Source: Ferrimonas kyonanensis DSM 18153 (GTDB lineage Bacteria > Pseudomonadota > Gammaproteobacteria > Enterobacterales > Shewanellaceae). From it: DNA of 64,000 bases. Shown here piece by piece: positions 26,988-60,835 of this stretch; the stretch's first letter is position 1; each line of letters begins with the position of its first letter. Below the pieces are notes generated by a model that did no database searches, was not told the origin of the DNA, and was given only the letters and a program-made list of their open reading frames with translations. The position numbers were made by a program, and so were the translations under genes. The stretch is taken from positions 205,594 to 269,593 of the forward strand of contig NZ_KE384365.1 in the NCBI RefSeq assembly GCF_000425405.1, in the 5' to 3' direction.

Positions 26988-27074
26988 GCAGATGTGGCGG
27001 AATTGGTAGACGCGCTAGCTTCAGGTGCTAGTGTCCGCAAGGACGTGAGAGTTCAAGTCTCTCCATCTGCACCA
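26988..27074 (+). tRNA. leuT: tRNA-Leu(CAG), copy 1
   Basis: An 87-nt class II tRNA including encoded CCA. The acceptor GCAGATG pairs with CATCTGC. The D-arm contains GCGGAATTGGTAGACGC, the anticodon loop TTCAGGT gives CAG, the long variable arm is GTGTCCGCAAGGAC, and the T-loop is GTTCAAG. Confidence 0.95.
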
Positions 27075-27091
27075 CTCATTGATGTCACGAT

Positions 27092-27178
27092 GCAGAAGTG
27101 GCGGAATTGGTAGACGCGCTAGCTTCAGGTGCTAGTGTCCGCAAGGACGTGAGAGTTCAAGTCTCTCTTTCTGCACCA
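27092..27178 (+). tRNA. tRNA-Leu(CAG), copy 2
   Basis: Same 87-nt structure and anticodon CAG as copy 1, 17 bp downstream. The acceptor stem differs in one compensated pair region (GCAGAAG / CTTTCTGC). CCA is encoded, followed by ACCACTC-TTTTTT-GAGTGGT, a small hairpin overlapping the CCA end. Confidence 0.95.
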
Positions 27179-27220
27179 CTCTTTTTTGAGTGGTTAATAG
27201 GCCCACCGAAGTCTTAATTC

Positions 27221-54810: not shown

Positions 54811-56185
54811 CTCCTCCGTCGTGCCCGCGGGTATCCAGTGGCTGTGCCTCTCGTCATTCTTGCGCAAGCGAGAATCCAGCGGCTTTAACGCCTTAAAACC
54901 TAAGACACTGGCCCCTCGCGTTCGCAAGGGCGACGGTGCGAATTGGATGAATTGGTAGTAAACCTGCAGTTATTCCGGTTTCGGCAGAGCTCGGTGTTGA
55001 TCGTTACCCACGTACCTCAACCATCCCTCCGTCGTGCCCGCGCACGCGGGTACCCAGTGGCTTTGTTGCTCCAACCCAAAACCAAAGACACTGGCCCCTC
55101 GCGTTCGCAAGGGCGACGGTGCTCATGGGCAGGGTTGGTGCTAAATGAGCTGTTATTGCGGTTTCGGCAAAGCACGGTACTGATGGTTACCCACGTACCC
55201 CAACCATCCCTTCCGTCGTGCCCGCGCACGAGGGTACCCAGTGGCTTTGTTGCACCCAACCCAAAACCGAAGACACTGGCCCCTCGCCTTCGCAAGGGCG
55301 ACAGTGCTCATGGGCAGGGCTGGTGCTAACTGAACAGTTATTGCGGTATCGGCAGAGCTCGGTGCAGTTCGTTACCCACGTGCCCCAACCATCCCTCCGT
55401 CGTGCCCGCGCACGCGGGTACCCAGCGGCTTTGTTGCACTAAACCAGAACCAAAGACACTGGGCCCTCGCGTTCGCAAGGGCGACGGGATGAAGACACTG
55501 AGCCCTCGCGTTCGCAAGGGCGACGGGATGAAGACACTGGGCCCTCACGTTCGTAAGGGCGACAGTGCTCATCGGCAGGGTTTCTGCTAAGTAAGCAGTT
55601 CTTGCAGTATCGGTAGCGCTCGGTGCTGACCGATACCCACGTACCCCAACCATCCCTCCGTCGTGCCCGCGCACGCGGGTACCCAGTGGCTTTGTTGCGC
55701 CCAACCAAAACCAAAGACACTGGCCCCTCGCGTTCGCAAGGGCGACGGTGCTCATGGGCAGGGCTGGTACTAACTGAGCAGTTATTGCGGTTTCGGCAGA
55801 GTTCGGCGCTTATCGTTACCCACGTACCCCAACCATCCCTCCGTCGTGCCCGCGCACGCGAGTATCCAGTGGCTTTGTTGCGCCCAACCCAAAACCGAAG
55901 ACACTGGACCCTCGCGTTCGCAAGGGCGACGGGATGAAGACACTGGCCCCTCGCGTTCGCAAGGGCGACGGTGCTCATGGGCAGGGCTGGTACTAACTGA
56001 GCAGTTATTGCGGTTTCGGCAGCGCTCGGTGTTGACGTTACCCACGTACTCCAACCATCCCTCCGTCGTGCCCGCGTACGCGGGTACCCAGTTGCTTTGT
56101 TACTCCAACCCAAAACCAAAGTCACTGGACCCTCGCGTTCGCAAGGGCGACGGGGTGGAGACACTGACCTCTCGCATCCGCAATC
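54811..56185. repeat. tandem array of hairpin repeats upstream of parM-like gene
   Basis: A 1.4-kb non-coding array. The motif GTCGTGCCCGCG starts at 55031, 55216, 55399, 55660, 55843 and 56065, giving spacings of 185, 183, 261, 183 and 222 bp. The last two long values equal 183 plus two or one extra 39-bp sub-units. Each unit holds hairpin alpha (CCCGCGCACGCGGG), hairpin beta (CCCTCGCGTTCGCAAGGG, one mismatch) and a linker of about 100 bp. Ten clear beta copies and one decayed copy at the right edge are present. A diverged unit at 54816-54936 forms the left edge. Possible centromere or dispersed hairpin repeat that expanded locally. Confidence 0.92.
55453..55569. repeat. three head-to-tail 39-bp beta sub-units
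   Basis: AAGACACTGG-GCCCTCGCG-type sub-units begin at 55453, 55492 and 55531, exactly 39 bp apart and joined by GGGATG. A two-copy version begins at 55898 and 55937. This shows the 39-bp beta sub-unit can expand independently of the 183-bp unit. Confidence 0.9.
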
Positions 56186-56259
56186 AGCCCTCTTCTCCGG
56201 CGCATCAACCTCACTTTTTTCAAAATTCGATTTAAGTTTGTGGATTCAGGGGTCGCATT

Positions 56260-56283
56260 AGCCCACGGTAGTGGGCTTTTTTT
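56260..56283 (+). terminator. terminator-like hairpin directly before the parM-like gene
   Basis: Stem AGCCCAC / GTGGGCT, loop GGTA, then seven T residues, ending 12 nt before the start codon. It is followed at once by the ribosome binding site AGGAA. It would stop transcripts coming from the array, and would act as an attenuator for any promoter further upstream. Confidence 0.75.
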
Positions 56284-56295
56284 ACAGGAACTGGG

Positions 56296-57309
56296 ATGCA
56301 GTCAGCCAACATGAAATTCGCCATCGATGATGGCTCCACCAACGTTAAAATCAGCTGGATCGAAAAGGGCCTGGTGCGCAGTGTCACCTCCCCCAACTCC
56401 TTTAGAAAAGACTGGAAAAGCGCCGCGCTGCTGAGCGACCGCAAGGTCTTCAACTACCAGATTGGTGCCACCAAATACACCTACGACGCCACCTCCGACA
56501 AAGCCCTGTCCACCACTCACGTGGCCTTTCAGTACGACGATCTGAACCTGCTGTCGGTACACCACGCTCTGCTGCAAACCGGCGTAAAACCCGGCCCGGT
56601 CAGCATTCTGGTGACCCTGCCAATCACCGAGTACTACAAAGCTGATGATTGTCAGAAGAACGAAGACAACATCGCTCGTAAGAAAGCCAACCTGATGCGC
56701 GACATCAGCCTCAACAAGGGCGAGCTGTTTGAAATTGTCGACGTCGAAGTGCTGCCAGAAAGCCTGCCGGCGGTACTGACCACCCTGATGGATTCCGGCG
56801 TCAACGAATTCACCAAATCACTGGTCATCGACTGCGGCGGCACCACCCTGGACATGGGCGTGATCGTCGGTGAATTCGATGACGTGTCGGCGGTGTACGG
56901 CAATGCCGAAATTGGCGTGTCCATGGTCACCAATGCCGCCCGTAAGGCACTGGCCGCCGCCGACAGCGACGCCAGTTACCTGGTCGCCAACGAACTGATT
57001 AAGCGCCGCCACGACCGCGACTTCGTCAACGAGGTGATCAACGACCTGTCCAAAGTTGACTGGGTACTGGAGCGCATCGAAGACAAGATCACCGAACTGG
57101 GCGCCGCCGTTGCTTACGAAGCCAAAACCTTCACCCGCAACCCCAACCGCATCTACCTGGTGGGCGGTGGCGCCATGCTGATCGAAACCGCCATTCGCGC
57201 CGCCTACCCGACCCTGGGCGACAAGATTGTGCTGGTTCAGGAGCCGCAGGAAGCCCTGTCTCGGGAGATCTGCTGCTACCACGCCGCCGAGCCGGCCGAA
57301 GCGGTTTAA
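56296..57309 (+). CDS. parM: ParM-like actin ATPase (plasmid-segregation type, chromosomal)
   Basis: A 337 aa actin-fold protein closely resembling ParM of plasmid R1. Shared wording includes FAIDDGSTNVK (phosphate 1 loop, residues 8-18), SPNSF, KVFNY, VHHALL, LPITEYY and NIARKKAN. Phosphate 2 is IDCGGTTLDMG (178-188), and the adenosine loop is LVGGGAML (288-295). All nucleotide-site residues look intact, so ATP-driven filaments are expected. R1 ParM polymerises to push plasmid copies apart through ParR bound at parC. AGGAA lies 6 nt before the ATG. The partner gene follows after 12 nt. It lies between valS and GGDEF genes, with no replication or mobility gene in sight. Confidence 0.9.
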   Translation: MQSANMKFAIDDGSTNVKISWIEKGLVRSVTSPNSFRKDWKSAALLSDRKVFNYQIGATKYTYDATSDKALSTTHVAFQYDDLNLLSVHHALLQTGVKPGPVSILVTLPITEYYKADDCQKNEDNIARKKANLMRDISLNKGELFEIVDVEVLPESLPAVLTTLMDSGVNEFTKSLVIDCGGTTLDMGVIVGEFDDVSAVYGNAEIGVSMVTNAARKALAAADSDASYLVANELIKRRHDRDFVNEVINDLSKVDWVLERIEDKITELGAAVAYEAKTFTRNPNRIYLVGGGAMLIETAIRAAYPTLGDKIVLVQEPQEALSREICCYHAAEPAEAV

Positions 57310-57321
57310 TAAGGGCAGCCC

Positions 57322-58074
57322 ATGCGCATTCGATGCAGCTTTACCCTGGAACCTGAGCTCCACGGCTCACACCAGTACGCCGTGGATACCCTGCGCCAAT
57401 GGCAGCAGCAGGAGAAGGGGCGCGGCGACAGCAATGAGGTGGCACAGCTGCGCCGCAATGGCTTCCATCGCGACCTGTATCTGTCTGGCCTGTTTCTGCA
57501 GCAGTTGTCGCCGCAGTTGCCGGCGATGCTGGCCCAGGCGTTGGTGGAAGAGCGGTTGCAGGGGCAGACCCTGACTCAACTGCTGGCCGCCAGCGGCGTC
57601 AGTGTCGATAGCGACAGCGGCGCCGGCCTGTCTGAGGGCCAGTGGACCAAGCTGACCTCGATGCTCAAGACCTCCATGGCGGCCCCCAAGGCCAGCGCCG
57701 AGGTCAACCTGGCACCGCTGCAGCAACAGCTGGAGCAGCTGGTTAACCGGCCGCAACCGGCACAATCCGGCAGCGACCTGTCCGGCGCACTGGCCCAGTT
57801 GGAGCAGCAACAGCAGCAGATTCTGGCCCAGCTACAGCAGTTGGCCAGCCAGAGTAACAACACACCGACGGCTCAACCGGATGCGCATGTCGACCTTGGC
57901 AGCCAGTTTGTGGCACTGAAGCAGGGGCAGGATAAGTTGATGACCCAACTGAAAGCACTGCGCAGCCAGATCAGCAGTGGCAGCTCGGCATCGGTGCAAG
58001 CCGATGCCGAGGCGCCCAGCCTGGATACCCAACTGGCGCTGGCCAGTAAAGTGAAATCGAAAGGAATCTGGTAA
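57322..58074 (+). CDS. ParR-like adaptor with long Gln-rich extension
   Basis: A 250 aa protein in the operon position of parR. The N-terminal 90 residues recall ParR: a short beta strand (IRCSFTLEP), then helices ending RRNGFHRDLYLSGLFLQQLSPQLPAML, which could be a ribbon-helix-helix DNA-binding fold. About 160 further residues are Gln/Ser/Ala-rich with coiled-coil potential (LAQLEQQQQQILAQLQQLAS), a region R1 ParR (about 117 aa) lacks. The last residues, KVKSKGIW, are basic. AAGGG precedes the ATG. Assignment rests mainly on position and weak N-terminal similarity. It ends 5 nt from the convergent GGDEF gene. Confidence 0.6.
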   Translation: MRIRCSFTLEPELHGSHQYAVDTLRQWQQQEKGRGDSNEVAQLRRNGFHRDLYLSGLFLQQLSPQLPAMLAQALVEERLQGQTLTQLLAASGVSVDSDSGAGLSEGQWTKLTSMLKTSMAAPKASAEVNLAPLQQQLEQLVNRPQPAQSGSDLSGALAQLEQQQQQILAQLQQLASQSNNTPTAQPDAHVDLGSQFVALKQGQDKLMTQLKALRSQISSGSSASVQADAEAPSLDTQLALASKVKSKGIW

Positions 58075-59441: not shown

Positions 59442-60689
59442 TTACGCCGCCACCCGGCGACGGCTGGGACGCCGGTTGAGCAGGCGATCGGCCTTGATGC
59501 AGTTGCGACCGGCTTGCTTGGCCTGGTATAAGGCCTCGTCGGCGCGCTTCACCACCTGGTCGACACTGGCATCGTCGGCCCGGGGCTGTGCCAGCCCCAT
59601 GCTAACGGTGATGGTTTGCGGTGCCACCTTAGGCGCCTGGCTGCGGCCTCGGCGGGCCACCCCGGCACTTTGCGGGCTGCGCACGTAAAACGGGTAGGCG
59701 GCAATCTCTTCACGAATGGCGTCCAGCGCCGCCAGGCAGCGTTTGCGCTCGCGGCTGCGGAACACGATGGTGAACTCCTCGCCGCCATAGCGGTAAACGG
59801 TGCCGCCAGCCTTTACTCGAGTCAGCATCTGCGCCACCAGTCGCAATACGTCATCGCCGACGTCGTGGCCAAAGGTGTCGTTGAATTTCTTGAAGTGGTC
59901 GATATCGACCATCGCCAGTTGATAACGGCCGGACAACCCCTGCATCAGCGCATCCAGGCTGCGGCGGTTGCGCACCCCGGTCAGCAAGTCGAAGAACGCC
60001 AGCCGGTAGCTGTGCAGTACCAGCAACACCAGCAGGCACAGCCCCAAAATGGTGAACATGGAGGAGGACACCCCAGGGGTGTCGAACTGATAGCAGGTCA
60101 GGCCCAGTGCCATCAGGCACAGCAGCGCCGCCGAGTCGCCTTTATCGCGGCGGCGGGTCTGAATCAGGGTGGAGATGACAAAATAGCAGGCCATCATCAG
60201 GGTCAGCACCCAGGGCAGCGGGTAGCCACCCAGCGCCGTTACCCAGGACGCCAGCCATTGGTGAGTGGCCTCGGCACTGGAGCTGAGCAGCATCGAGAAC
60301 AGGGCAACCGGAGCCAGCAGCAGTGCGTAAGCGAAACCGTTATGACCGGTGGCGATCCACTTCTCCGGCATCACATCAAACAGGAACACCAGCAGCGGCG
60401 CCAGCAGGCACAGGCCCCAGAAAATAAGCTCGGTGTTGCCCTGCGGCAGCGGCACCTGCAGCTTCCACTGGATCACCAAATAACTGGCCAGCGACACCAG
60501 CACCATGAAGCTGAGTTTTTGCAGGCGATAGATGCGACTGACGATCCAGGCACTGGTCAGCAGCACCCAGGGCAGGTTTTGCATCAACCATTGAATTTCA
60601 TTGCTGGACGACACCAGCCAGGAGGGTAGAAACAGCACACTGGCCGCCAGAAACAGCGCCAGACTCAACTGGATCAGGCGATGCGACAT
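59442..60689 (-). CDS. membrane diguanylate cyclase (GGEEF), paralogue B
   Basis: A 415 aa protein with the same design as its neighbour: a multi-helix N-terminus (1-225), then FFDLLTGVRNRRS, VDIDHFKKFNDTFGHDVGDDVL and RYGGEEF. The inhibitory RxxD is absent (KAGG). An insert of similar size sits before the TVSMGLAQ strand. The two are clearly tandem duplicates. AAGGA lies upstream of the ATG. The 120-bp gap to paralogue A has no terminator, so co-transcription is possible. Confidence 0.88.
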   Translation of the reverse strand: MSHRLIQLSLALFLAASVLFLPSWLVSSSNEIQWLMQNLPWVLLTSAWIVSRIYRLQKLSFMVLVSLASYLVIQWKLQVPLPQGNTELIFWGLCLLAPLLVFLFDVMPEKWIATGHNGFAYALLLAPVALFSMLLSSSAEATHQWLASWVTALGGYPLPWVLTLMMACYFVISTLIQTRRRDKGDSAALLCLMALGLTCYQFDTPGVSSSMFTILGLCLLVLLVLHSYRLAFFDLLTGVRNRRSLDALMQGLSGRYQLAMVDIDHFKKFNDTFGHDVGDDVLRLVAQMLTRVKAGGTVYRYGGEEFTIVFRSRERKRCLAALDAIREEIAAYPFYVRSPQSAGVARRGRSQAPKVAPQTITVSMGLAQPRADDASVDQVVKRADEALYQAKQAGRNCIKADRLLNRRPSRRRVAA

Positions 60690-60793: not shown

Positions 60794-60835
60794 GTTGGCT
60801 TAAAGCGACCCCGAAAAGGCAAACTTTAAGCCAAC
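60794..60835. repeat. 12-bp perfect inverted repeat
   Basis: GTTGGCTTAAAG (60794-60805) and CTTTAAGCCAAC (60824-60835) are separated by 18 bp. They lie between the nucleoside hydrolase stop and paralogue B. There is no T-run, so it may be a weak terminator of the hydrolase transcript or an operator for paralogue B. Confidence 0.5.

Follow-up and report, generated by a model that had tools for sequence, protein, structure and literature searches.

Introduction

Among the closest described relatives of the gene pair analyzed here, an actin-like parM and a parR-like partner (together parMR) on the chromosome of Ferrimonas kyonanensis DSM 18153, are the plasmid ParMRC systems of R1 and pB171 (type II partition). 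The pair lies in a stretch of 64,000 nt (contig NZ_KE384365.1, 205,594-269,593, forward strand), hereafter the window. It resembles plasmid ParMRC in its ParM motifs, full-length homology, ParR N-terminal fold and parM-parR order, whereas its chromosomal location, membership of a separate clade, lack of detected parC iterons, long variable ParR linker and predicted promoter of the lateral flagellar type set it apart. Chromosome-encoded ParMs have been described, with their role stated as open (Ali et al. 2025; PMC12270681). The cParMR pairs of that paper, from Desulfitobacterium, Clostridium and others, are likewise chromosomal and conserved within a genus, but the examples named in its section 4 are Firmicutes and one Burkholderia, presented with no regulon or flagellar link, and its main text holds no match for flagell, Shewanella, Ferrimonas, Enterobacter or Vibrio. 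On the flagellar side, the flag-2 (lateral) locus of Enterobacterales has been surveyed (De Maayer et al. 2020; PMC6993521), and the same lafS-lafT-lafU kind of locus adjoins parMR in 12 Enterobacteriaceae loci; the main text of the survey has no match for ParM, segregation or actin. A literature search, judged largely by titles and the starts of abstracts and covering few subscription journals, found no report tying ParM to lateral flagella. To our knowledge, the question of how a cell places its lateral flagella and divides them between its daughters is still open.

Here, we found that parMR follows lateral flagella in Enterobacteriaceae as well as in Ferrimonas, Shewanella, Moritella and an Aeromonas-like genus; in a Vibrio, the pair lies in a lateral locus. 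The bacteria with such a chromosomal pair appear to include many marine and gut-related ones. Judging from these genome comparisons, the chromosomal ParM-ParR pair probably functions within the lateral flagellar system, the second and side-mounted one, to which we give a probability of roughly three in four. This link makes both the placement of lateral flagella and the role of chromosomal ParMs testable with simple deletions. A role in lateral flagella, if true, would be a new job for a ParM-type filament, and, if ParM acts on flagella, we know of no other ParM-type filament with a job outside DNA partition.

Association with lateral flagella

Copies of FliF (PF08345) were counted as the marker of flagellar systems in a family sample (152 genomes) and an order sample (394 genomes). 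All 33 family genomes with a near full-length parM, counting one with an internal stop in parM (G066), had two FliF, versus two or more in 36 of the 119 others (Fisher p = 2e-14, with genomes taken as independent although related). In the order sample, where parM of the clade was called at an identity of at least 63%, two or more FliF were present in 21 of the 23 parM genomes versus 35 of the 371 others, the latter including a genome with a broken parM (G459). Both exceptions dissolve because they hold lateral flagellar genes: the single FliF of G255 is of the lateral type and lies 3 kb from parM, and in G297 a contig end truncates the lateral FliF, next to which lie lateral flhA, flhB, fliP, lafK and fliE. 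The contrast was repeated within the family, within Ferrimonas and within the Aeromonas-like genus g38, in which parM was found in all 11 listed genomes that have two FliF and in one of the 10 that have one (G297), genomes lacking FliF not all being among those listed. Of the 51 parM genomes in the two samples, 35 were queried and all had a lateral-type FliF, that of G066 being broken and that of G297 contig-cut. Besides the stop in its parM, G066 thus carries a broken lateral FliF; the sole genome of the window's genus without parM (G010) has one FliF, as do two genomes with parM remnants, namely G047 (51 residues) and G459 (three pieces).

In seven single-contig genomes, parM lies 0.7-2.1 Mb from the lateral FliF (0.69 Mb in G263, 0.80 Mb in G059, about 1.05 Mb in G086, 1.57 Mb in G002, about 1.95 Mb in G215 and G285, and about 2.1 Mb in G012), so linkage alone cannot explain the association. 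The distance is 31 kb in G307 and about 3 kb in G006. In the genome of the window, parM is on contig C5, whereas the lateral locus occupies 26.9-59.7 kb of C19, from flhA to motB, with lafS, lafK, FlgM, FliD, FliF, MotA and MotB confirmed by Pfam. In terms of gene content, no clear exception to the co-occurrence of parMR and lateral flagellar genes was seen in our samples, even among unlinked cases. The sequence-only reading of the window had proposed that the pair positions a chromosomal locus; the tie to lateral flagella shifts the likely role to serving the second flagellar system.

A homologue scan with one genome per species yielded 47 loci with a parM relative, and flagellar genes were adjacent to parMR in 14 of them. 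Twelve of the 47 loci, from Enterobacteriaceae, have the order lafS-motA-motB-nlpC-parM-parR, in which nlpC is an NlpC/P60 gene. In Vibrio xiamenensis, parMR adjoins flhB-fliP, and in an uncultured Ferrimonas it lies within a flagellar cluster, with fliF, fliE and lafK on one side and fliM to flhA on the other; at loci L077 and L132, the arrangement is lafK/motY | parMR-fliM-fliN. Two genomes of genus g15 have parMR after fliI (fliI-parM-parR-x-flgA at L130, and alike at L131), with flgA two genes beyond parMR confirmed in one of the two. In both, parR is followed by a gene for a 342-aa protein (L130, 2590-3618, minus strand; L131, 8587-9615), and the L130 protein, ahead of flgA, had no Pfam match. 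parMR lies within basal-body operons in G255 and G371. Shewanella matches resembling LafK (L037, L039-L042 and L080) or MotY (L036) were not counted as flagellar neighbors, as their place and length indicate that they are probably unrelated sigma-54 activators or OmpA-type proteins.

Predicted promoter of parM

In the window's genome, TTTAAGTTT-N12-GTCGC is found upstream of both the lateral flgM and parM (at 56231), and the 14-base pattern has three exact matches in that genome: one each at parM and the lateral flgM, and one upstream of the lateral fliD. This pattern was selected after the three sites had been seen, and with up to one mismatch it gave 5 matches versus 5 for a reversed control, so only its exact matches are informative. 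We also built a matrix from 14 of the 16 available lateral flgM sites of several genomes (15 fetched loci plus the window genome's own), omitting G049, which has an 11-base spacer, and G130. Twenty-two parM upstreams were scored against 275 control upstreams, with the tested genome left out of the matrix and its near relatives kept. For 17 of the 22, at most 3 of the 275 controls scored as high (1 of 275 for the window); the corresponding numbers were 5 in G001, 9 in G135, 38 in G007, and 165 each in G217 and G263. When the matrix was run over the whole window, the parM site came top at 22.3 bits, followed by 14.5 bits for the next site, and the best site of the polar locus scored 13.0 bits. 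At the polar flagellin and flaG genes, the site is of another type, GCCGAT. An earlier promoter pattern had missed 6 of 25 upstreams, of which the matrix later recovered four (L037, L038, L054 and L055). Most unlinked parM genes tested have a promoter resembling that of the lateral flgM, which is consistent with control by the lateral sigma factor. By eye, the parM upstreams of three Photobacterium/Vibrio loci (L062, L069 and L070) have a sigma-54-like GG-N10-GC in place of the lateral sigma-28 site.

An inverted repeat followed by a T run stands right after the predicted promoter. It was rejected as a terminator and is treated as a possible operator because it overlaps the expected transcription start; a hairpin in the 5' untranslated region is the other candidate role. 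By eye, a similar palindrome occupies the same position in several Ferrimonas and is imperfect in Shewanella. An Rfam search for a riboswitch between the repeat array upstream of parM (see below) and parM gave four weak matches, none of which reached the gathering score.

The ParM clade and its ParR-like partner

The sequence-only reading had described an intact ParM/ParR-like gene pair resident on the chromosome, and this is borne out. Both genes are intact and arranged parM-parR; the nucleotide motifs of ParM are preserved, its homology to plasmid ParM extends over the full length, and its partner has the ParR fold. Rather than belonging to a mobile island of one strain, parM is present in 13 of the 14 genomes of the genus, and housekeeping genes adjoin it in the window.

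The 47 loci, from Ferrimonas, Shewanella, Moritella, Aeromonas, Vibrio, Photobacterium, Hafnia and Enterobacteriaceae, have a best-segment identity of 71-99%; L081, in which parM is broken, was excluded from the motif counts and the tree. Among the best 5000 plasmid matches, one was 72.8% identical (on a 2.1-Mb Photobacterium replicon) and the other 4999 were below 60%, with 56% the best listed. The plasmid-type controls, six plasmid records and one phage record, were drawn from at least 5000 matches on plasmids and 16 on phages. In a tree of 61 rows, the 54 chromosomal ParMs were split from the 7 plasmid/phage ParMs by a branch with 100/100 support, although the long plasmid branches leave the positions of the plasmid ParMs unsure, as the program warned. 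By homology and tree, the window ParM is a member of a clade separate from the plasmid ParMs tested. One of the three g38 ParMs in the tree groups with Aeromonas simiae. The ParM of L050, from a record titled Marinobacter nauticus DP3N21-5, groups within those of Ferrimonas balearica, and the Marinobacter title is therefore probably wrong. A search of 5426 Escherichia coli genomes with an Enterobacter parM as query, at blastn sensitivity, gave no chromosomal match and three plasmid matches.

Compared with five Shewanella and one Moritella, the window ParM has a protein identity of 84-93%, against an identity of 25-42% at fourfold sites. The window ParR is 89% identical to that of the nearest species, and only 48-53% identical to those of two Ferrimonas and one Shewanella relative. 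ParM is therefore old and strongly constrained, whereas its partner drifts.

The ParR N-terminal domain is of the ribbon-helix-helix type, with a fold similar to that of pB171 ParR, and many members have a basic N-terminal strand. Lengths span 167 to 329 aa among 38 aligned proteins, 24 of which match PF10784. Members of the clade have a long variable linker, whereas six of the plasmid/phage ParRs have 112-133 aa and one has 223. At the C-terminal end, [KR].KG[LI][WF] was found in 47 of the 47 ParRs tested; the two g15 ParRs, which are outside this set, end in KAKKIF and KSKKLF.

Repeat array upstream of parM

Direct repeats between valS and parM had been proposed as an enlarged parC, in an order valS-array-parM that might be fixed. 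The repeats are real, but their interpretation as parC is not supported, and the order is not fixed, since parMR is found elsewhere in other Ferrimonas and in Shewanella. A 191-bp piece of the array has 177 matches across many contigs of the genome, so the array is a dispersed genome-wide repeat and not a dedicated centromere. In relatives with parMR, it is replaced by a different repeat or absent: valS ends about 200 bp ahead of parM in Ferrimonas aestuarii (L043), and, measured by eye, the nlpC-parM gap of the Enterobacteriaceae loci is only about 30-90 bp. Furthermore, 10-mer iterons upstream of parM exceeded shuffles in none of 21 chromosomal regions (250 bp in each of 20 relatives and 140 bp in the window), versus 4 of the 7 plasmid/phage controls, so the test is of moderate sensitivity. 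Matches of the repeat family lie close to the starts of contigs C1, C10, C11, C19, C31 and C36 (numbering as given), suggesting that the repeat breaks the assembly.

Possible mechanism and alternative explanations

If the pair serves the lateral flagellar system, the lateral sigma factor would turn on parMR at a late stage, while lateral flagella are being built. ParM would then form ATP-driven filaments, whose ends ParR would hold through its conserved C-terminal tip, and the N-terminal domain and variable linker of ParR would couple the filament to a cargo. Our leading guess at this cargo, a tentative one, is lateral flagella or the sites at which they are assembled, which may be spread or shared along the cell; chromosomal DNA ranks next and a role in cell shape or division of surface-moving cells after it, both rather doubtful. 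More specifically, and with less assurance than the leading guess, ParR-capped ParM filaments might move or share flagellar basal bodies as a protein cargo, in a placement role comparable to that of polar FlhF/FlhG. The location of parMR in basal-body operons favors the flagellum itself as the cargo, and the lack of iterons together with the long ParR linker mildly favors a non-DNA cargo, while the retained ParR fold keeps DNA among the candidates.

Several observations weigh against assigning the pair to the lateral system or against a flagellar cargo. FliF counts alone do not show a lateral system, and the assignment of FliF to the lateral type, made by similarity, covers 35 of the 51 parM genomes; in G307 and G354, the call depends on a small score gap (266 and 256 versus 219 and 215 bits). 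Shared ancestry within the samples makes the Fisher p-values too small. Conversely, among the 69 family genomes that carry at least two FliF, 36 have no parM, so a second flagellar system can occur where parM is absent, and 13 parM-free genomes with two FliF that were queried also have a lateral-type FliF (51-55% identity), which marks parM as an accessory to the lateral system and not part of its core. As for the promoter, the matrix sites were chosen by eye, the matrix test found no lateral-type parM promoter in the Moritella-like G217 and G263 and a weak one in G007, and the site of two further flagellin genes, which are on C3 and may encode the lateral filament, is GGCGC, akin to the flgM type but distinct from it. 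Finally, ParR retains a DNA-binding-type fold, which suits a DNA cargo equally with a protein cargo.

Within the same regulon, ParR might instead sit on distant chromosomal sites that ParM filaments move in elongated, multi-nucleoid surface-moving cells. The lateral-type promoter at parM and the similarity of the ParR fold to that of pB171 ParR agree with such a DNA cargo, but no iterons were detected near parM (a genome-wide search for ParR sites was not made), and the long variable linker is absent from most of the seven plasmid/phage ParRs; we consider it unlikely. An equally unlikely explanation is that ParMR alters the shape of surface-moving cells or prevents them from dividing, with no action on flagella. 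The regulon evidence applies to it unchanged, and ParM is an actin-like polymer, yet it leaves the presence of parMR inside the basal-body operons of G255 and G371 unexplained.

That an ex-plasmid pair has hitch-hiked alongside lateral flagellar loci without contributing to lateral flagella is improbable. Its patchy presence, including the parM-free family genomes with two or more FliF, would fit, as would the gathering of cargo genes by flag-2 loci noted in the survey (PMC6993521). Against this, the association persists at separations of 0.7-2.1 Mb, the promoter type is held in common, the ParM protein is conserved while its fourfold sites are not, parM and the lateral FliF are both broken in G066, and parM remnants are found in the single-FliF genomes G047 and G459. 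Least credible of all is a ParMRC-type DNA partition in which the repeat array serves as centromere and a chromosomal locus is positioned: the array does sit at the parC position, and ParR has kept its fold and, in many members, the basic strand, but the array is dispersed and is missing or different in relatives with parMR, iterons rose above shuffles only among the plasmid/phage controls, the nlpC-parM gap of the Enterobacteriaceae is short, and the link to lateral flagella would not be predicted.

Other features of the window

Table 1. Features around parMR, in window positions
Feature	Position	Strand	Basis or remark
Dispersed 183-bp/39-bp repeat array between valS and parM; bystander	54811..56152	.	
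Predicted lateral sigma-28 (LafS-type) parM promoter, TTTAAGTTT-N12-GTCGCATTA	56231..56260	+	matrix and exact pattern
Inverted repeat AGCCCAC-N4-GTGGGCT, then T run, right after promoter; possible operator or 5' untranslated region hairpin	56260..56277	+	
parM, actin-like ATPase, chromosomal lateral-flagella clade	56296..57309	+	ParM nucleotide motifs, homology, tree
ParR-like gene	57322-58074	+	directly after parM
parR N-terminal domain, about residues 1-95, ParR fold	57322..57606	+	
parR linker; variable, helical, Gln-rich	57607..58053	+	
parR conserved C-terminal tip, KSKGIW and stop; presumed ParM-binding end	58054..58074	+	function inferred
GGDEF protein, possible lateral-regulon co-member	59442..60689	-	PF00990, 108 bits
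Second lateral-type promoter-like site, TAAAGTTT-N11-GTCGCTTTA, upstream of neighboring GGDEF gene	60801..60828	-	pattern search

The promoter-like site ahead of the GGDEF gene was not listed by the matrix, which has a 12-base spacer. Sites upstream of the same gene are found at L043 (10425, minus strand) and L045 (10514, minus strand), and their presence in three Ferrimonas loci suggests that a cyclic di-GMP gene may share the regulon. Elsewhere in the window, at 26988-27181, a tandem repeat finder reported two near-identical tandem copies of 104 bp that resemble leucine tRNA genes.

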